This document shows positions 4,085 to 64,000 of a stretch of 64,000 nucleotides of DNA, piece by piece (the stretch's first letter is position 1; the number at the start of each line of letters is the position of its first letter). The notes below the pieces were generated by a model, which made no database searches, was not told the DNA's origin, and saw nothing but the letters and a program-made list of their open reading frames with translations. This stretch comes from Desulfoferula mesophila. GTDB lineage: Bacteria; Desulfobacterota; Desulfarculia; Desulfarculales; Desulfarculaceae. Made by a program: the position numbers and the translations under genes. The stretch is from the NCBI RefSeq assembly GCF_037076455.1, contig NZ_AP028679.1, forward strand, positions 3,921,501 to 3,985,500, written 5' to 3'.

Positions 4085-4520
4085 TAGCGTAGGTTGGGTT
4101 GAGGGCGCAGCCCGAAGCCCAACACTCCCCTTGTCGTTGCGAAAAGCACAGCGACGAAGCAATCTCTGCCCGTAGCAGGTGCTTTCGCCCCGCTGGCCCC
4201 GTCCGAGCAAAGCCCGTCCGCCTCGCCATCAGGCTTTCTGGCAATAGTGGTCATTGCGAGGAGCGGCGGCGCCAGAGGTCGGCCTGGAAAAAGCGGCCTT
4301 CCCGCCGCGACGCGGCCATCTTCCGTTTCTCTCGTCATTTCTGGGTGCGTGAGAAAAGGCCAACCCGTCCACCGAGCCACGAAACGATCCCGCCCGGGGG
4401 AAGGCGAAGATCGCCGCGTCGCATCTCCCCGGAGATGCTCCTCGCGATGACGTCTATTTACCGGGTTGCCAGAAAGGTACTGTTGGGTTTCGGGCTTCGC
4501 CCTCTACCCAACCTACGCTA
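4085..4520. repeat. Composite intergenic repeat bounded by 40-bp inverted repeats
   Basis: The left end (4085-4124, TAGCGTAGGTTGGGTTGAGG...) recurs as its near-exact reverse complement at 4481-4520 (...CTCTACCCAACCTACGCTA). Inside are GACGAAGCAATCTCTG (about 4153) and GTCATTGCGAGGAGCGGCGG (about 4250), then a block rich in GAAGATCGCCGCGTCGCAT (about 4410). A diverged copy lies at 5999-6410, and part of the interior occurs inverted at 53683-53750. No open frame is conserved between copies, so this is a non-coding REP/MITE-like element. No protein-coding gene is seen in 4056-4750. Confidence 0.75.
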
Positions 4521-4536
4521 ACGCCCAGAATTACCC

Positions 4537-4743
4537 GGCACAGCCAGGGGTTCGTGGGCGAGGCGTCCGGCCGGCGCGGGCCGCAGGCGTATTACCCATA
4601 CGCCGAGGCCCAAACGCCAGCGGGCGGCACAGCCAGGGGCCGCAGGGCAAGGCGACGGGCGAACGAGGAACGCAGGCGTAGTCAACCTACGCCGAGGACC
4701 GAGCGACGCCCACAACGCAGCCATGCGGGGTCTGGCGCAGCCG
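4537..4743 (-). repeat. Two tandem copies of the stop-codon-abutting hairpin repeat
   Basis: Copy A (4537-4625) is truncated at its gene-proximal end and copy B (4626-4743) is full. Both begin GGCACAGCCAGGGG as read on the plus strand, and B ends CTGGCGCAGCCG. Each carries a 7-bp stem with a 5-base loop: GGCGTAT/ATACGCC at 4586-4604 in A, and GGCGTAG/CTACGCC at 4675-4693 in B, a compensated base-pair change. B ends 8 bases from the stop codon of the 4Fe-4S gene, so it would form that gene's 3' UTR. Other copies: 11753-11870, 47746-47863, 63683-63801; partial copies: 6371-6410 and 56221-56274. Confidence 0.8.
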
Positions 4744-4750
4744 CCGCCCC

Positions 4751-5884
4751 CTACTTCTTGGAGGCCAAGAGCCTATCCATCTTGGACTTCAGCCCCATCA
4801 TGGCCATCTTGCCCCCGCCCATGGTGCCCCTGGCCTTGGCCATGTCCAGGTACATCTCCTTGACGTTGCCCGGCACCCGCTTCTGGGCGTCCTCGGGCTT
4901 GCGCTCAAGGCTCAGCGCCCCGGAGGGGCAGGTGCTCACGCACAGGCCGCAACCGATGCAGCGGTCCAGGTCCAGCACCACCTTGTCCTCGTCGTCCAGG
5001 CTCAGGGCCTCCATCTGGCAGCGGTCCAGACACACCCCGCAGCCGATGCATTCGTCGGGATCGGCCGCGGCCACAAAGGGGCTGGCCGCCAGCTCGGCGG
5101 GGCGCGGCTGGCGCTTGAGGGTCTTGAGCACCTGGCAGCAGCAACCGCAGCAGCAGCAGAGGTTGATGGGCTTCTGGGCGTTGGAGGGCTGCAGCACCAG
5201 GCCCGCCTCGTCGGCCTTTTGCAATATGGCCAAGGCCTCTTCCTGGTCGATCTCCCGGCCCACCCCGCGGCGCTGGTAATAATAAGCGCCCGCCCCGAAC
5301 ACCAGGCAGGTCTCCTCGGGCTTGTCGCATCCCTGGCCCACCATGGCGTGCTCCCGGCGGCAGATGCAGGGGGCCACCAGGATCTTGCTCTGGCTGCGGA
5401 TGAGGTTCTCCGCCTCCTCGTAGGGCATGATGTGCTGCTTGGCCTCGATGCTCTTGCCCACGGGGATGGTGCGCAGTTGGGGAGCCTTCTGCCAGATGCC
5501 CGCCTCGAACAGGGTGGGGATGTAGGCATTCATCAGCGCGATAAGCTCGGGGTCCAGGTCGTTGACGTGGTACTCCCAGATGCCGATGACGTACTGGGCG
5601 GCCATGTAGAGCGCCTCGCGGCCGGGAGGGTAGATCCCCAGGATCAGCCCCTGGTCCACCATCTCCTCCAGGCGCTCCTTGGCCGCCTCCAAGCCAAGCC
5701 CGGCCCGGCGGGCGATGACCCGAGCCTCCTCGGGAATCAGGGTGCAGTGCAGGGCCAACTCCGCCTGCTCGGGAGTGAAGAGCTTCTGGAGAATCTTCAG
5801 CTCCACCCCGTCTTCGGTGGGCGGATAGCCGCCGGGCAGGCCGTCCAGGTGCTTGGCCAGCTTTTGGTAGACGTCACGGGCCAT
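4751..5884 (-). CDS. 4Fe-4S dicluster protein with poly-cysteine motif
   Basis: A 377-residue cytoplasmic iron-sulfur protein. Two classical ferredoxin motifs lie near the C-terminus: CIGCGVCLDRC and CIGCGLCVSTCPSGAL. Upstream are a CICRREHAMVGQGC...C group near residue 175 and a run CCCCGCCC near residue 245. The N-terminal ~120 residues are helical and winged-helix-like (DGVELKILQKLFTPEQAELAL). Proteins of this layout are common in sulfate reducers and related anaerobes, and no reaction is established for them. The start is supported by a GGAGG 5 bases upstream. It is monocistronic, with intergenic repeats on both sides. Confidence 0.8.
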   Translation of the reverse strand: MARDVYQKLAKHLDGLPGGYPPTEDGVELKILQKLFTPEQAELALHCTLIPEEARVIARRAGLGLEAAKERLEEMVDQGLILGIYPPGREALYMAAQYVIGIWEYHVNDLDPELIALMNAYIPTLFEAGIWQKAPQLRTIPVGKSIEAKQHIMPYEEAENLIRSQSKILVAPCICRREHAMVGQGCDKPEETCLVFGAGAYYYQRRGVGREIDQEEALAILQKADEAGLVLQPSNAQKPINLCCCCGCCCQVLKTLKRQPRPAELAASPFVAAADPDECIGCGVCLDRCQMEALSLDDEDKVVLDLDRCIGCGLCVSTCPSGALSLERKPEDAQKRVPGNVKEMYLDMAKARGTMGGGKMAMMGLKSKMDRLLASKK

Positions 5885-5998: not shown

Positions 5999-6410
5999 TA
6001 GCGTAGGTTGGGTTGAGGGCGCAGCCCGAAGCCCAACAACTCCCTTATCGTTTCGAAGAGCGGCGACATGCCGTGACGAAGCAATCTCTGCCCGCAGCAG
6101 ATGCTCACACACCGTGCTCAACGCCGCGTTCCGTCAAGCTCCAGCCAATAGCCGTCATGGCGAGGAGCGGCGGAGTCAAAGGCAGGTAAGAAAAGGGCGC
6201 TGCTCCCGCCGCGACGCGGCCATTTTCGATTTCCCTCGTCAGGCCGCCGCTGGCCAGACAGGGCCAAGCCTTCCTCCCGTTCCAAACCATCCCGCTCGGG
6301 GAAAAGCGAAGATCGCCGCGTCGCATCACCAGCGAGATGCTCCTCGCGATGACCGCTATTGCTGGATTGGGGATGCCGGCAACCCGGCTATCGGGCGTCT
6401 GGCGAAGCCG
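5999..6410. repeat. Diverged copy of the composite repeat plus partial 3'-end repeat
   Basis: Positions 5999-6038 repeat TAGCGTAGGTTGGGTTGAGG... as at 4085. GACGAAGCAATCTCTGCCCG follows (about 6074), then GTCATGGCGAGGAGCGGCGG (about 6154) and GCGAAGATCGCCGCGTCGCAT (about 6306), in the same order as in the first copy. The right boundary differs: instead of the inverted GGTTGGGTT arm it ends in GATGCCGGCAACCCGGC...CTGGCGAAGCCG (6372-6410), the gene-proximal half of the ~118-bp repeat, 8 bases from the SDR stop codon. No gene is seen in 5885-6417. Confidence 0.7.
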
Positions 6411-6417
6411 CCCGCCC

Positions 6418-7224
6418 CTACCGCTGTAACTCGCTTCTGAGCGACCGCAGCATCATGCGCTCATACAGGGCCGGGCTGAGCTTGTTGATCAGGTAGGTCA
6501 GCTTGCCGATGGCCGACAGCACCACCAGGCGCTTTTCCTGGGCCACCGCCCGGTGCAGGGCCTCGGCCACCTCCTGGGGCGTGGCGATCTTGCCCACCGT
6601 GGACTGCTGGTGGCTGGTCAGGCTGCCGTCGCCGTCCAGGGCGGCGTGGGCGATGCCGGTGTTGGTGAAACCCGGGCACACGATGCTCACCGTCACCCCG
6701 GTGCCGGCCAGCTCGGACCGTAGAGTCTCGAACAGCCCGTGCAGGGCGTGCTTGGCCGCCGAGTAGCCGCTGCGGCCGTAGAGGGGGGCCACCCCGGCCA
6801 CCGAGGAGATCACCGCGATCTGCCCCCGGCGCTGCAAAAGACTGGGCAGGGCCGCTTGGGTGCAGTGGAGGCTGCCCAGGTAGTTCACGGCCATCACCTT
6901 GGCGAACACCTCCGGGCTGGTGTCCTTGAAGGCGCTGCGGTGGGTGATGCCCGCGTTGTTGATCAGCAGGTCCACGCCCCCCAGGCGCTCGACGACCTGG
7001 GCCAGGGCCGCGCGGCAGGCCGCCGCGTCGGTCACGTCGCAGGCCAGGCCCAGGCACTCGGCCCCGCCCAGCTCCCCGGCCGCCCGCGCCGCCGCCGCGC
7101 CGTCCAGATCCAGCAGGGCCACCTTGGCCCCCAAGGCGGCGAAGCGCCGGGCAAAGGCCGCACCCAGGCCCCCGGCCCCGCCGGTGATCACCACCGTCTT
7201 GCCCTGGTAGCTACGCCGGGCCAC
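6418..7224 (-). CDS. Short-chain dehydrogenase/reductase (classical SDR)
   Basis: A 268-residue NAD(P)-dependent oxidoreductase. TGGAGGLGAAFA at residues 14-25 is the Rossmann loop, followed by NNAG near 90, a catalytic Ser (VISSVAG, near 140) and the YSAAK dyad near 155. PGFTNTGI follows as in many SDRs. DLDG after the second strand favours NAD(H), since the acidic residue disfavours NADP; this is an inference. The substrate is unknown. It is the last gene of a five-gene minus-strand operon and overlaps the epimerase gene by 14 bases. Confidence 0.85.
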   Translation of the reverse strand: MARRSYQGKTVVITGGAGGLGAAFARRFAALGAKVALLDLDGAAAARAAGELGGAECLGLACDVTDAAACRAALAQVVERLGGVDLLINNAGITHRSAFKDTSPEVFAKVMAVNYLGSLHCTQAALPSLLQRRGQIAVISSVAGVAPLYGRSGYSAAKHALHGLFETLRSELAGTGVTVSIVCPGFTNTGIAHAALDGDGSLTSHQQSTVGKIATPQEVAEALHRAVAQEKRLVVLSAIGKLTYLINKLSPALYERMMLRSLRSELQR

Positions 7225-10860: not shown

Positions 10861-11520
10861 CTATCTCCTTTTAAGCGGGGCCAACACCCGCTCGATTAGT
10901 TCCACGGTGCGCCTGATTTCCTCGTCCACCACCTTCTTGCTCAGGCGGCCCTTTATCTCCAGGTATTCGCGCATGCGAATCTGGAAGTGGCGCGAGACCA
11001 AGGAGGCCAGGAACACGATGTAAAGGCTGTTGATCCAAAAGGCGGCATGGTTGACGTTGAGGTCGGAACGCACCAGGCCGCGTTTTATGTCCCGCGTCAG
11101 CACCGCCTTCAGATGGTCGGCGGTGTACTTCTCCACCTCCAGGGACAGCTTTTCGGCAAAGGGCTCCAGCCCGGCCGAGGAGACGTTGAGGTAGAGGATG
11201 AGGTACTCGGGATGCTTGCGGGCAAAGGCCGCGCCCTGGGTGAAGACGTGCTCCAGTTGGCGGTACACGTCCCAGCCGGGGTCCAGGCCGCCATACACCG
11301 CCTGGCGCGAGCGCTCCAGGCCGTCGCGGCATACGTAGAGGTAGAGCTCCTGCTTGGACTCGAAGTAGTTGTACAGCGAGCCCTTGGCCACGCCGGCCCG
11401 GGTGGCCAACTCGGCCATGTCCGCCTGGTTGTAGCCCCGCTGGGCGAAAAGCTTGGCCGCCTCGCTCAGCAGCTTCTCCCGCTTGGCGGGCCTGATTTTA
11501 TCCAGGGTGTCCTTGGGCAC
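10861..11520 (-). CDS. TetR/AcrR-family transcriptional regulator
   Basis: A 219-residue regulator. Residues ~10-55 form the TetR helix-turn-helix (KLLSEAAKLFAQRGY...MAELATRAGVAKGSLYNYFESKQEL); the rest is the helical ligand domain. I place the start at the GTG at 11520 because GGGAGG lies 5 bases upstream. The longer frame, reaching 11568, would put a perfect operator palindrome inside the coding region. It is the first gene of the operon with the ThDP enzyme, BASS and SDRs, so it most likely represses its own operon and is released by a small organic ligand. Confidence 0.88.
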   Translation of the reverse strand: MPKDTLDKIRPAKREKLLSEAAKLFAQRGYNQADMAELATRAGVAKGSLYNYFESKQELYLYVCRDGLERSRQAVYGGLDPGWDVYRQLEHVFTQGAAFARKHPEYLILYLNVSSAGLEPFAEKLSLEVEKYTADHLKAVLTRDIKRGLVRSDLNVNHAAFWINSLYIVFLASLVSRHFQIRMREYLEIKGRLSKKVVDEEIRRTVELIERVLAPLKRR

Positions 11521-11662: not shown

Positions 11663-11870
11663 TGTTGGGTTTCGCCGCGCTCTACCCAGCTTACGCTATT
11701 GCCAGAGAGGCGTTGTAGGGGCGGGGCTCATCCCCGCCCTCCCCTCTTTCGCGGCACAGCCAGGGGTTCGCGGACGAGGCGTCCGGCGAGCGCAAGCCGC
11801 AAGCGTGGCATAGTCACGCTGAGGCTTAAGCGATGCCGGCAACAAAGCCCACGGGCAGCTGGCGCAGCCG
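11663..11870 (-). repeat. Intergenic repeats: GGTTGGGTT arm and 3'-end hairpin repeat
   Basis: Positions 11663-11698 match the inverted arm TGTTGGGTTTCG...CTCTACCCA seen at 4481-4520. A short hairpin GGCGGGG-CTCAT-CCCCGCC (about 11721-11738) follows; a similar one is at about 53641. Positions 11753-11870 are a full copy of the ~118-bp repeat, with stem AGCGTG/CACGCT (11802-11820). Its outer G-C pair is replaced by A-T and its inner A-T by G-C relative to the 4537 copy. It ends 10 bases from the nitroreductase stop codon. No gene is seen in 11557-11880. Confidence 0.75.
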
Positions 11871-11880
11871 GGCCGCCGCC

Positions 11881-12786
11881 TCAATCGCACCAGCGCAGGG
11901 CCGGCGCCCGCCTCCCGGTAAGACGCACATACTCTTCCTTGGGCCAACCCAGGGAGATCACCGCGTGGATTTTCTCGTCCGGCCCCACCCCGAAGGCGCG
12001 GCCCACCTCGGGCTTCTGGTCCATGACGGCCACGGCGAAGCCGATGAGGCAGGTGCCCAGGCCCATGGCGTGGGCGGCCAGGAGCATGTGCCCGGCGGCC
12101 AGCAGGGCGTCCTCCTTGGGGGTGGAGGCCCCGGGCCGGGAGCCGATCATGATGGCCGCGGCGGCCCCGTGCATCAGGCGGTCGATGCCCTTTTCCTCCC
12201 ACTCGGCCAGGCCCCGGCTCACCGAATCGTGGTACTCGTGAAAATACTCGTCCAGCTGGGGCTTGCCCACTAGGCGCATCAGCTTGCGCAGCCAGGCTTT
12301 CTCGGACATGCGGTTGAACTCGGCCATGACCCGGCCCACCCCCTGGGCCAGTTCCAGCACCTTTTCCCGGCTGGGCAGCACGGTGAAGCTCCAGCGCTGG
12401 CTGTTGGTGCCCGAGGGTGCGCTGAGACCGATCTTCACCAGGTCGGCCAGCATTTCCCGAGGCACCGGCTCCCGGCGAAAGTTGCGGCAGGAGCGGCGCG
12501 AGGCCATCAGCCGGACCAGGCCGGGCAGATCGTAGCCGCCGTGGGGCAGCCAGGTCTCGTCCAGCTCGAAGGTGGCGAAGCTGGTCTGCTCCGGGTCCAG
12601 GCTGCCCACCCGCACCGCCCCTTCGGGGCACACCGCCTGGCAATGCCCGCAGTTCAGGGAGCTGTCGCCGGTGACCACCGCCTTGCCTCCCACCAGGCTC
12701 AGGGTCTGGGAGGGGCACACTCTGATGCAGCGGCCGCAGCCGTTGCAGCGCTCGGGGTCTATTACCGTGGTAACCGCCTGGGGCAT
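11881..12786 (-). CDS. Ferredoxin-nitroreductase fusion protein
   Basis: A 301-residue protein. Residues 1-65 are a two-cluster ferredoxin with CNGCGRCIRVCPSQTL and CGHCQAVCPEGAV. Residues ~85-300 are a nitroreductase-fold flavoprotein: SRRSCRNFRREPVP, APSGTNSQRWSF for FMN binding, and AAHAMGLGTCLIGF near 240. FMN-dependent reduction of a nitro, quinone or similar acceptor is expected, with electrons delivered through the fused clusters. The ATG at 12786 follows GGAGAGAG; longer in-frame starts add a Pro/Ala-rich stretch with no ribosome site. This fusion type is common in anaerobes; the substrate is unknown. Confidence 0.85.
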   Translation of the reverse strand: MPQAVTTVIDPERCNGCGRCIRVCPSQTLSLVGGKAVVTGDSSLNCGHCQAVCPEGAVRVGSLDPEQTSFATFELDETWLPHGGYDLPGLVRLMASRRSCRNFRREPVPREMLADLVKIGLSAPSGTNSQRWSFTVLPSREKVLELAQGVGRVMAEFNRMSEKAWLRKLMRLVGKPQLDEYFHEYHDSVSRGLAEWEEKGIDRLMHGAAAAIMIGSRPGASTPKEDALLAAGHMLLAAHAMGLGTCLIGFAVAVMDQKPEVGRAFGVGPDEKIHAVISLGWPKEEYVRLTGRRAPALRWCD

Positions 12787-15404: not shown

Positions 15405-15571
15405 CCCGCGCATATCATGAGGGCTGAGTGGTGTTAAATAACGGACCTGCATTTATGGGGCTGTTATAAACAAAGCACCCGCATCATGGCGAGGCCCGAG
15501 CGCGGCCGGCAACCCCGTATGCCGGTGACTAACGAAGTCAGGCGCACGGCCCTCATGAAATATGCGGGCTA
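15402..15571. other. Long-range inverted repeat joining two convergent stop codons
   Basis: TAGCCCGC...CATGAGGGC at 15402-15424 is mirrored by GCCCTCATG...GCGGGCTA at 15549-15571: 17 of 23 positions pair, with a 6-base internal mismatch. The outermost TAG on each side is the stop codon of the regulator (plus) and of the DUF2254 gene (minus). The ~125-base interior has no ORF and no T-run. It could be a shared 3' structure or a small inserted element. Confidence 0.55.
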
Positions 15572-16941
15572 GCCCCGCCCCGATTCGCCCTGCTCCCCGC
15601 CGCTCTCCAAGGGCGGAGGGGCCAAACGCAACCCCGACTGCTTCAATTCATCCATCACGGCCAGGTACTTTTGCCGGACCAGCTCCCGGTCCCAGGCCAG
15701 GCGCAGGTTGTCCATTATGTCGGCCTCCACGGCCTGGGCCAAATGGGTCAGCGCCTCGTGATCTTGGGGCAGGCGCACCTGCCGGGCCAGGTCGGCCAAT
15801 ACCTCCAACAGGCGCACCGTGCACATCACGTTTTCCCGCGCCGCCCGACGAATGGGCTCCAGGCAGCCCATGGCCACCAGAGCGAAGTCGACCTGGGGCA
15901 ACAGCAGGCGCAGCTCGCCGTTTTCATCCAGGCGAAAGGGGGGCCGCCGCCCCCGGGTGGCCAAGAGGGCCAGGCCCGACCCCAGCCAGTCGATGCAGGT
16001 GATGGCGGTGTAGGGGTCGTTCACCCCCGGCGAGAGCGCCCTGAGGGCGCTCTCGGCCAAAAGCCGGGCCACGTACTCCACGTCCTGGGCCTCGGTGCGC
16101 TCCACCCCCAGGGTAAAGCCCCGGTGCAGCCGCGCGGCCAGCTCCGGAGTGAAGCTCTCCGGCGGCCAGACCCGGCACAGGGCCCCGCCGGCGATCACGA
16201 AGTCGCCCGGCCGGTGGGTGAGCTCTATGAGCAGGTCCTGATCGCGGGCCAAATCATAGAGGCGGCCCAGGTCGGTCATCTGCAGATAGCCGCTCTGCTG
16301 GGCCCCGAGCTCCCCGGCCCGCCGCTCGAATCCCTGCGGCAGCTCCGGCGCGGCCCAGATGGCCTGGCCGTCCGCGGCCTCGGGAAACAGGCGGCGCACC
16401 GCGTCCTCCAGCTCGTGTCCCACCCGGGCCAGGAGGTTGTTGGCCTGAATGGAGGAGGCGATATGGTGGATGAAATAAATCAACACGCCTAGGCTGACCA
16501 GGGCCAGGGCCAGGCCCACGCTCACCGAAAGGTTGGGCAAGGGGACGCCGGATTCGTCGATGGTGGGCAGGGCCACCAAGCAATAGACAAAGGTGGCCAC
16601 GAAGGTGCCCATCACCAGCTGGTTGCCGGTGTCGTCCATGAAGTTGCGCACCAGGCGGGGGCCGAACTGGTTGGAGGTGAGGCTCAACACCAACATGGTC
16701 AGGGAAAAGACCAGGCCCGCCACGGTGATCATGGAACCGGCGATGGTGGAAAGCACCGCCCGGGCCCCCTGGGCGCTGCCCTGGTAGATCCACCACAGCT
16801 TGGCCTCGCCGGTCAGCCGCAGGTTGGCCTCCAGGACGGTGGTGATGTAGGCCAAGACCAGGCCGAAGCCACCAACAGGCCGGGCACGAACCACAGGCTG
16901 TAGCGCACGCGGTACCAAAGGCTGATTATGCGGTTTTTCAA
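15569..16941 (-). CDS. DUF2254 membrane protein with an apparent N-terminal frameshift
   Basis: DUF2254 proteins are predicted inner-membrane proteins of unknown role. The main frame gives TVLEANLRLTGEAKLWW, GSMITVAGLVFSLTMLVLSLTSNQFGPRL, three further hydrophobic helices and a soluble C-terminal half with SPGVNDPYTAITC, all typical. The expected start, a TTG at 16941 after GGAG encoding LKNRIISLWYRVRYSLWFVPG, lies in a different frame. The two join only if one base is restored near 16855-16885. Either the gene carries a real 1-base deletion or the sequence has an error there. Longer upstream starts in the main frame give non-family sequence. Confidence 0.7.
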
Positions 16942-47745: not shown

Positions 47746-47863
47746 GGCACAGCCAGACGGTGCAGGGCAAGACGTCGCGCTAACGAGGACCGCGGGCTTG
47801 ATTAGGCCACGCCGAGGTCTGAGCGCCGCACGCAACGCGGCTATCAGCTGTCCGGCGAAGCCG
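47746..47863 (-). repeat. 3'-end hairpin repeat, copy abutting ruvA
   Basis: GGCACAGCCAGACGG...GTCCGGCGAAGCCG. It matches the other copies over the full length, though its central stem is weaker here (GGC...GCC). It ends 12 bases from the ruvA stop codon and lies 60 bases past the antiporter stop. Confidence 0.7.
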
Positions 47864-47875
47864 GCGAAACCCGCC

Positions 47876-48469
47876 TTAGCCCACCACGGCCTTGAGCGCT
47901 GATTTGATGATCCCCTCCAGGCCCATCCCCGCCTCGGAACCCTTGATGGCCCGATCCACCGCCTTTTTGGCCTTGGCCTCGGGATAGCCCAGGTTCATCA
48001 GGGCGCTCACCGCGTCTTGGCCCAGCGGCTCGGCCGAGGCCTCGGCGGCCTCGCCCTGGCCCGTATCCTTGGGCAGGCGGCCTTCAAGCTCCACCACCAG
48101 GCGGGCGGCGGTTTTCTTGCCCACGCCGGGGATGGCGGTGAGCCGGGCGGCGTCGCCCGCCCGAATGGCCTTGTACAGCTCGACCGGGGGTATGCCGCTC
48201 AGGATGGCCTGGGCCACCTTGGGGCCGATGCCGCTGACGGTGACGAGGTTGCCGAAGGCCTGCCACTCCGCCTCGCTCAGAAAGCCGTGCAGATGGATGT
48301 GGTCGTCGCGCACGATGGTGTGGATGAACAGGGTGACCGGGTGGCCGCACTCGGGCAGCTCGCAGAAGGTGGTGAGGCTAACGAACACCCGGTAGCCCAC
48401 CCCGGCGCAGTCCACCACCACGTGGTCCGGACGGCGGGTGAGCACGGTGCCGCTGACCGAGGCGATCAT
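47876..48469 (-). CDS. ruvA: Holliday junction branch-migration protein RuvA
   Basis: A 197-residue DNA-binding subunit. It has the N-terminal OB fold (MIASVSGTVLTRRPDHVVVDCAGVGYRVFVS), the HhH motifs (LVTVSGIGPKVAQAILSG and LTAIPGVGKKTAARLVVEL), and the C-terminal three-helix domain that contacts RuvB (DAVSALMNLGYPEAKAKKAVDRA). It targets the RuvB motor to junctions. Its start overlaps the ruvC stop codon by 4 bases. RuvB is not encoded next to it in this window. Confidence 0.95.
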   Translation of the reverse strand: MIASVSGTVLTRRPDHVVVDCAGVGYRVFVSLTTFCELPECGHPVTLFIHTIVRDDHIHLHGFLSEAEWQAFGNLVTVSGIGPKVAQAILSGIPPVELYKAIRAGDAARLTAIPGVGKKTAARLVVELEGRLPKDTGQGEAAEASAEPLGQDAVSALMNLGYPEAKAKKAVDRAIKGSEAGMGLEGIIKSALKAVVG

Positions 48470-56220: not shown

Positions 56221-56274
56221 AGGCCGAGGCCTAAGCGATGCCGGCAACGCGGTATTTCGGCGTCTGGCGAAGCA
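56221..56274 (-). repeat. Partial 3'-end repeat abutting the 56277 gene
   Basis: GCCGAGGCCTAAGCGATGCCGGCAACGCGG...GTCTGGCGAAGCAGC corresponds to the gene-proximal half of the ~118-bp repeat, and resembles the copy before the nitroreductase gene (GAGGCTTAAGCGATGCCGGCAAC). It ends about 3 bases from a stop codon. Confidence 0.6.
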
Positions 56275-56276
56275 GC

Positions 56277-56948
56277 TCAGTGGCTGGCGGCCACCTCCTC
56301 GGGCGAGGCCACCGACACCATCAGCCCGTTGCAGTCGGCGCAATACTCGGGCTGGCGCACCTTCTCGTCGTGGTACACCCGCTGGGGCTTTACCCGGTCC
56401 AGGAACTTCTTGGCCTCTTCCCAGGCCGCCTCGGGGCTAAAGTCCACCGCCGCCAGTTGCAGCGATTGCAACACCTGGCCTTCCATGGAGTGCTGCACCA
56501 CGGTCATCACCTCGGGCACCCCGCCCTCCTCGCCGAACACGGTGATGGTGGCCATGCCCCCCAGGCCGTCATAGGCCGAGTTGAGCGAACCGTGGCGGCA
56601 GGTGGCCGGGGGGGTATTCGGGTCGTTGACGAACTCCCCCACCGCGTGGGCCAGGTCGTGGGGATCGGCCAGGTTGTGCTCGCTGTCCTCGGCCCACTGG
56701 CCAAAGGGACCGGCGGCCACCGGCACGGGCACTACCTCCACTTTCATCTCCCTGAGGAAATGCATGAGATACCAGTTCTGCTTGGCCTGGCGGCGAAACT
56801 CGGCCAGGCTGTTGCCGTCCGAGGGGCGGCGGTAGATGGCCTGCCAGTCGCCAAAGGAAAACACCGGCAAGCGCACCGTATCGTGACCCTGGGCCACGAA
56901 ACGCCGGGCCAGGTCGCGGGAATTATTGATAACCTGAGTCAGGTCCAC
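56277..56948 (-). CDS. Conserved-looking protein of unknown function
   Basis: A 223-residue soluble protein with no signal peptide or membrane helix. It is rich in acidic and aromatic residues, with a single CADCNG pair near the C-terminus that could bind a metal. RHGSLNSAYDGLGGMATITVFGEEGG mid-protein has a catalytic look but matches no family I recognise. The GTG start at 56948 follows GGAGGG. It is convergent with groEL and upstream of the outer-membrane-type protein gene with a ~90-base gap, on the same strand. Confidence 0.6.
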   Translation of the reverse strand: MDLTQVINNSRDLARRFVAQGHDTVRLPVFSFGDWQAIYRRPSDGNSLAEFRRQAKQNWYLMHFLREMKVEVVPVPVAAGPFGQWAEDSEHNLADPHDLAHAVGEFVNDPNTPPATCRHGSLNSAYDGLGGMATITVFGEEGGVPEVMTVVQHSMEGQVLQSLQLAAVDFSPEAAWEEAKKFLDRVKPQRVYHDEKVRQPEYCADCNGLMVSVASPEEVAASH

Positions 56949-63682: not shown

Positions 63683-63801
63683 GGCACAGCCAGGTGGGGC
63701 TAGGCAAGGCGCCGGGCCAGCGAGACCCGCAGGCGTATTACCCATACGCCGAGGAGGCGAGCGCCGCCCGCAACGCAGCATAGCGCCGCCTGGCGCAGCC
63801 G
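63683..63801 (-). repeat. 3'-end hairpin repeat, copy abutting the acyl-CoA ligase gene
   Basis: GGCACAGCCAGG...CTGGCGCAGCCG, with stem GGCGTAT/ATACGCC (63732-63750) identical to that of the 4537 copy. It ends 2 bases from the ligase stop codon, the closest of all copies. Confidence 0.75.
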
Positions 63802-63803
63802 GC

Positions 63804-64000
63804 CTAGCGCTTGTACATGGCGTCGATCATGTCTTTGTAGGTCTCGTTGATGAACTTGCGCTTGACCTTCATGGTGGGGGTGACTTCGCCGTCTTCTTCC
63901 AGGAGCTTTTTGGGCAGGATGGTGAAGCGCTTGATCTGCTCCACCCTGGCCAGGGTCTTGTTCACGTCCTCGATCTCCCGGCCGATCAGCTCCTTGACCT
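63804..64000 (-). CDS. Long-chain acyl-CoA synthetase (AMP-binding), C-terminal fragment
   Basis: The last ~65 codons of a gene running off the right edge. KELIGREIEDVNKTLARVEQIKRFTILP and LLEEDGEVTPTMKVKRKFINETYKDMI match the C-terminal cap of FadD/FAA1-type AMP-binding enzymes, with the conserved TPTMKVKR. It activates fatty acids to acyl-CoA. The stop is at 63804. Confidence 0.83.
   Translation of the reverse strand, partial: VKELIGREIEDVNKTLARVEQIKRFTILPKKLLEEDGEVTPTMKVKRKFINETYKDMIDAMYKR

Follow-up and report, generated by a model that had tools for sequence, protein, structure and literature searches.

A probable REP/REPIN-like mobile hairpin family set in one orientation behind the stop codons of fork-directed genes in Desulfoferula mesophila

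A hairpin-forming sequence of about 118-120 bp recurs throughout the genome of D. mesophila, and is probably a non-autonomous mobile family resembling REP/REPIN elements that inserts by stop codons, in a specific orientation and on the lagging-strand template. The copies make up a repeat family that is dispersed over the genome, lies in a fixed orientation adjacent to translation stops, is biased with respect to the replication fork, is enriched towards the origin, has been gained and lost between species, and carries old compensatory and recent single changes in its stem. So sharp a placement relative to stop, orientation and fork points to a selfish repeat with a precise landing site and not to an ordinary terminator. 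Gene-end palindromes such as REP and ERIC have been known for decades, and it is still argued whether they serve the host as regulators or are selfish DNA. The location rule of the present family (a single orientation, a distance of 0-6 nt from the stop, fork bias and proximity to the origin) is sharp enough to be testable, and its mutation pattern distinguishes selection acting on spread from selection acting at the individual site. Should insertion by stop codon and lagging-strand template prove true, it would be an unusual target choice for a bacterial mobile element, and the family could serve as a natural probe for DNA that is single-stranded where translation terminates.

The window analysed is a stretch of 64,000 nucleotides at positions 3,921,501-3,985,500 of a single contig of 4,479,191 bases (~66% G+C). 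A covariance model, R1, was built from 11 copies in the mRNA-sense reading and gave at least 104 matches at E<=0.01 in the 4.48-Mb genome (best 1.7e-29), the number being a minimum since scoring was limited to the top 150 candidates. Nearly all of these matches lie between called genes, and joining tandem copies merges them into 88 sites. Full copies score 95-135 bits in the sense reading and about 20-43 bits in the antisense reading, so that the orientation of the element can be assigned. Among 30 related genomes, R1 found 27-122 matches in each of the seven congeners and 40 in a member of another genus of the Desulfarculaceae (G010), numbers in which diverged copies of the congeners (including MAGs labelled Desulfarculaceae, e.g., that of locus L078) are under-sampled because the model derives from copies of D. 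mesophila itself. Two more distant genomes of the 30 gave single marginal matches (E 0.002-0.006), and the remainder none. At E<=1e-6 across 63 genomes of the class, nine were positive, namely the eight of the genus and G010, and the other 54 had no match. Rfam returned no match for the window at the gathering threshold and none for positions 4400-4800 at E<=10, and a known RNA family was rejected on this ground. A genome-wide search of this kind had been proposed in a preliminary description of the window, which had noticed copies against the stop codons of minus-strand genes; the search found the placement to be non-random with respect to stop codons.

All the copies named in that description are present on the minus strand, the truncated one at 4537-4621, and both the full and the partial copies lie close to stop codons (Table 1). 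The copy at 4626-4743, up to 94% identical to copies at other places and with a minimum free energy of -57.7 kcal/mol when folded as sense RNA, is the young, stop-proximal member of a tandem pair in which the older truncated copy is directly distal. At a congener locus (L079), the ortholog of the gene at 4751-5884 is followed by a sole, intact copy of the older subfamily type. That the youngest copy is always the stop-proximal one in tandem arrays was considered and is not general. A hairpin behind this gene is kept in two congeners (L078 and L079; matches at 11147-11264), and the equivalent place in the near relative Desulfocarbo indianensis (L080) holds instead a hairpin followed by a T-run.

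Table 1. Hairpin copies and adjoining genes in the window
Feature	Position	Strand	Remarks
Older truncated copy, other subfamily	4537-4621	-	5' ~30 nt missing
Full 118-nt element, young subfamily	4626-4743	-	R1 128.4 bits; 7 nt from stop of the 4751-5884 gene
Gene upstream of tandem pair, 4Fe-4S ferredoxin-domain protein	4751-5884	-	Pfam
3'-truncated copy, 5' end retained	6371-6410	-	7 nt after TAG of the gene at 6418
Short-chain dehydrogenase gene upstream of the 6371-6410 copy	6418-7224	-	
Full copy	11753-11870	-	R1 107 bits; 10 nt after TGA; adjoins nitroreductase/ferredoxin gene at 11881
Degenerate MITE-borne copy	15490-15573	-	MITE left end TAGCCCGCATATTTCATGAGG and 5' half of hairpin
Full copy	47746-47863	-	R1 99.5 bits; 12 nt after TAA of ruvA (47876)
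ruvA	47876-48469	-	RuvA domains
3'-truncated copy	56221-56275	-	~0 nt after TGA of gene ending at 56277
Full copy	63683-63801	-	R1 102.9 bits; 2 nt after TAG of gene ending at 63804

Placement relative to genes was assessed on 709 kb of the genome (the stretches around all matches and four control regions), in which genes were called ab initio with a codon-usage dynamic-programming script and not taken from a curated annotation. A same-strand gene precedes 77 of the 88 sites, and 71 sites (81%) lie 0-25 nt downstream of a stop codon in the same sense, against 7.1% expected for uniform intergenic placement in random orientation (binomial p about 4e-65). Within 6 nt of the stop there are 44 sites (2.1% expected), and only one of the 88 lies antisense within 25 nt. 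The same-orientation placement first seen in the window thus holds genome-wide. Distances from stop to element peak at 0-6 nt in this genome and in congeners; in four of the latter, sense copies outnumber antisense ones by 83 to 3 within 25 nt of a stop. Weighing against targeted insertion, only about half of the congener copies are stop-adjacent; some of the remainder are MITE-borne, and 38 were classed outside the stop-adjacent, tandem and MITE groups. Convergent gene pairs contain 52 of the 71 stop-adjacent sites in D. mesophila. A preference for TAG was tried and showed no real excess (46 of 73 genes with the repeat vs 131 of 230 other unit-final genes). The creation of stop codons by the insertion was rejected as well, as C-termini and stops are common to orthologs that have no copy; only MITE-borne cases supply their own TAG.

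Eleven sites have no same-sense upstream gene, and most of these share flanks. In the clear exceptions, a left flank TTAGCCCGnATATTTCATGAGG stands ~30 nt before the hairpin and an inverted copy, CCTTCATGAAATATCCGGGCTAG, follows on the right, which indicates that the hairpin is carried inside a separate MITE; several other exceptions have degenerate flanks only. Most exceptions thus appear to be hairpins within such a MITE, which can provide a TAG ~28 nt ahead of the hairpin; at window position 15569, for example, the MITE end of the 15490-15573 copy supplies the TAG with which a gene terminates. As an observation in its own right, a MITE with ends TAGCCCGnATATTTCATGA bears the hairpin as cargo (L058:11500-12050, window 15490-15573 and others), encloses it in at least five clear copies, and can supply the stop of the gene on which it lands.

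Two further regularities, a fork bias and a clustering towards the origin, are absent from the preliminary description. The contig starts with dnaA and dnaN, and 75 of the 88 sites are fork-oriented, compared with 53% of genes (378 to 336; 378/714) and with a near-even split of transcription-unit-final genes (153 to 148). Convergent gene pairs serve as an internal control, because each holds one leading and one lagging gene, and in 44 of 52 the repeat is on the leading-strand gene (p 4e-7). In the congeners, where fork direction was inferred from orthologs and synteny and the counts are not independent because they are partly inherited, 48 of 63 sites are fork-oriented overall and 32 of 43 sites in convergent pairs are on the leading gene. 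The density of sites rises towards the origin (KS p 2e-6), with 19 of the 88 in the origin-nearest 10% of the genome and 2 in the furthest 10%. Both preferences, for the fork direction and for stops, are correlational.

Read in the sense direction, the element forms a single extended, imperfect hairpin (-49 to -66 kcal/mol), with modest folding z-scores for the sense strand (-0.65 to -2.7) and scores of -4.0 to -4.4 for the other strand of two copies. In an alignment of 107 copies that was fitted to R1, and from which unconstrained RNAalifold recovers only 13 pairs, 91% of cells pair and 24 of 33 pairs have two-sided changes. There are 304 two-sided cells vs 89 +/- 7 in shuffles, and all covariation measures exceed all 500 shuffles and all slid controls. 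The outermost pair (-1/+2), which lies outside the element as it was delimited earlier, also covaries, extending the unit to ~120 bp; in stop-adjacent copies its C-G and G-C states are almost equally common (39 and 38 of n=90). The ends of the element read CGGCTKCGCC...GGCTGTGCCG. They include terminal inverted repeats, CGGCTKCGCCAG...CTGGCTGTGCCG, which together with the covarying outer pair are as in a MITE. Terminal mini-palindromes, GGCTKCGCC and GGCTGTGCC, which may or may not be REPs, and single-end remnants occur too.

The covariation reported earlier is therefore real, and the history of the changes qualifies its meaning. Selection on the sense RNA at each site would tolerate a change from G-C to G-U more than one from G-C to A-C. 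When each copy was compared with its nearest neighbour, recent one-sided stem changes gave 120 G-U vs 122 A-C, an equality which suggests that individual copies decay as though unselected as RNA. The ratio of compensatory to single changes climbs with divergence, from 0.03 between copies more than 94% identical through 0.20, 0.38 and 0.59 to 0.92 between diverged ones, a series whose pairs share copies and which is thus to be read as a trend and not as a set of independent counts. Compensatory changes are old and single changes recent, the pattern given by a mobile family that needs its structure to spread. The earlier statement that covariation implies selection on structure thus stands for the lineages that spread and fails for individual sites, where compensation is scarce (0.03 vs 0.92) and G-U equals A-C.

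Evidence for mobility comes from the comparison of copies and of orthologous sites. Dispersed copies at unrelated genes are up to 97% identical. Among 1,123 classified pairs of reciprocal orthologs from five genomes, the repeat is on both sides in 51 and on one side in 133. The other site of 12 of these one-sided pairs has an end remnant (e.g., TAG-TC-CGGCTGTGCCGG or TAG-GCGGCTTCGCC), which is what an internal deletion of a palindrome would leave, and further 5'-end fragments lie directly after stops at other places. The 133 one-sided pairs revealed neither a target-site duplication nor a clean pre-insertion site, most 'empty' orthologs being too diverged or remnant-bearing, and the ortholog-pair analysis identified no target motif and no cognate IS. 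Of 27 copies in this genome that are at least 90% identical to another, 20 are stop-adjacent and 2 tandem, and 25 are fork-oriented; since young copies are already patterned in this manner, the pattern probably arises at insertion or through very fast selection. A gene-end function that was selected for very quickly would look like targeted insertion, which weighs against the latter. At two loci of one congener (G005, L229 and L232) a seemingly identical heterodimer was seen, consisting of a 120-mer, 5 nt and a 118-mer, so that pairs may sometimes spread as a unit in a BIME-like manner.

We propose that the element, an extended imperfect palindrome whose internal loops are conserved, would be moved or copied as a single-stranded DNA hairpin by an enzyme supplied in trans, new copies being set in one orientation immediately 3' of stops. 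The preferred targets would be genes transcribed with the replication fork, in which the sense strand of the element is then on the lagging-strand template, and entry would take place into DNA that is single-stranded just behind the last ribosome (the non-template strand of the 3' UTR) and on that template. Selection for mobility in active lineages would maintain the structure, and settled copies would decay, with frequent loss by internal deletion. Once transcribed, the hairpin may act as a shield for the 3' end of the mRNA or delay translation termination, as enterobacterial REPs do, effects that are probably secondary and a by-product rather than the cause of the spread. A tentative extension, for which the odds seem somewhat against, is that the family follows a hitherto undescribed targeting rule, by which one specific strand is inserted directly behind translation stops on the lagging-strand template with ribosome exit (e.g., through R-loops in a 3' UTR free of ribosomes) as the address.

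The preliminary description had offered two readings, an inserted element that targets gene ends and an mRNA 3'-end element. The former fits better, as it accommodates dispersed copies of up to 97% identity, gain and loss, and a range of one genus and one relative, and the latter is not supported as far as termination as the main role is concerned, given the lack of a conserved T-run and the native terminators beyond the repeat at some genes. In its wider form, the mRNA reading is of an RNA element of the proximal 3' UTR selected by the host, which protects mRNA ends (e.g., those left by Rho-dependent termination) or influences the release of ribosomes; its copies would persist solely where they are useful, directly after stops and in sense. 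This account appears rather unlikely, even though it agrees with the location 0-6 nt after stops in sense orientation, with the strong folding and covariation, with the slightly better codon scores of element-bearing genes (p 0.015), and with the scarcity of strict intrinsic terminators (46 of 301 transcription-unit ends), which leaves room for another end-former. Moreover, many E. coli REPs lie <=15 nt from stops, where they stall ribosomes, and about half of one set is positioned to do so (PMC12306157). However, a host-selected RNA does not predict the fork bias within convergent pairs (44/52), a near-palindrome ought to function in either orientation, recent stem mutations have no preference of G-U over A-C, and species differ in the sites they have gained or lost.

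A bona fide transcription terminator, i.e., an intrinsic terminator spread by duplication, would suit the position at the ends of transcription units (convergent pairs hold 52 of the 71 stop-adjacent sites) and the hairpin with T-run at the one equivalent site of Desulfocarbo indianensis. It is nevertheless very improbable, and was rejected, since the hairpin is not followed by a conserved U-tract (TTTTT occurs within 80 nt downstream in 15 of 94 copies) and canonical terminators lie beyond the repeat at some genes (L030|1, L184|6 and L047|3), that of L047|3 being retained in the repeat-less ortholog L178|23. Integron attC sites, for their part, are imperfect hairpins of ~60-140 nt located after stops, orientation-specific and with a lagging-strand preference, all of which recalls the present element. 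A folded single-strand recombination site of this type, used by a tyrosine recombinase, is hardly credible here and was likewise rejected, as the ends CGGCTKCGCC...GGCTGTGCCG lack RYYYAAC/GTTRRRY boxes, an integron integrase (TIGR02249) stayed below the curated cut-off in all seven genomes searched, and the hosts include core genes such as ruvA and no cassette arrays.

Our preferred reading, the mobile hairpin family, is closest to REP/REPIN elements and their RAYT (TnpA-REP) transposases. Like REPs, which are found predominantly downstream of genes, between convergent or unidirectional ORFs (PMC3733652), the element is a high-copy extragenic hairpin palindrome with 104 matches and a covarying stem. 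As in REPINs, which consist of two inverted units and measure about 70-110 bp (PMC3116915), a short GGC-NNN-GCC palindrome is present at each end. Unlike REPs, which alternate in orientation, it is fixed relative to the gene, with a strong fork bias and a far stricter stop adjacency (81% within 25 nt). The foot also lacks GTAG/CGTC or another conserved tetranucleotide: neither GTAG/GTGG nor CGTC stands 5' of it, and the flank there has at most a weak G/C preference, -1 being C or G. No Y1 transposase (RAYT/IS200, PF01797) was found in this genome, so that a RAYT/IS200 enzyme was rejected as the present mover; PF01797 proteins do occur in two other genomes (one in G005 and two in G006), with no hairpin in their flanks. 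The element thus behaves like REP/RAYT in most visible respects and is not filed under that name, since this genome yielded no Y1 transposase, seven genomes no integron integrase above the cut-off, and the copies no conserved tetranucleotide and no demonstrable target duplication. Single-strand transposition favours the lagging-strand template, and IS200/IS605 elements share with this family hairpin ends, one active strand and that template preference (PMC6006769). They differ in having a Y1 transposase and a conserved target tetranucleotide, neither of which is seen here. We know of no counterpart of the stop-codon association in IS200/IS605-type transposition. Palindromes of 100-170 bp such as ERIC/IRU (RU-1, 127 bp) and RU-2 (168 bp; PMC2759123) are similar in size and in being intergenic, mobile and MITE-like, and are unlike the element in that the latter has no Rfam match and yielded no target-site duplication.

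Other repeats accompany the hairpin in the window. A second interspersed family of ~220 bp, with the pattern CAATAGyggTCATnGCGAGGAGC...GCGACGCGGC...CTCGCGATGAC, is present at 4242-4458 and 6139-6370, its two copies being 77-87% identical, and has many matches in congeners. A short palindromic repeat, GCGTAGGTTGGGTAGAGCGAAGCGAAACCCAACA, lies at 4481-4522 and recurs shortly 3' of hairpin elements; by a loose pattern, it is found within 80 nt of 16 of 94 hairpin copies.
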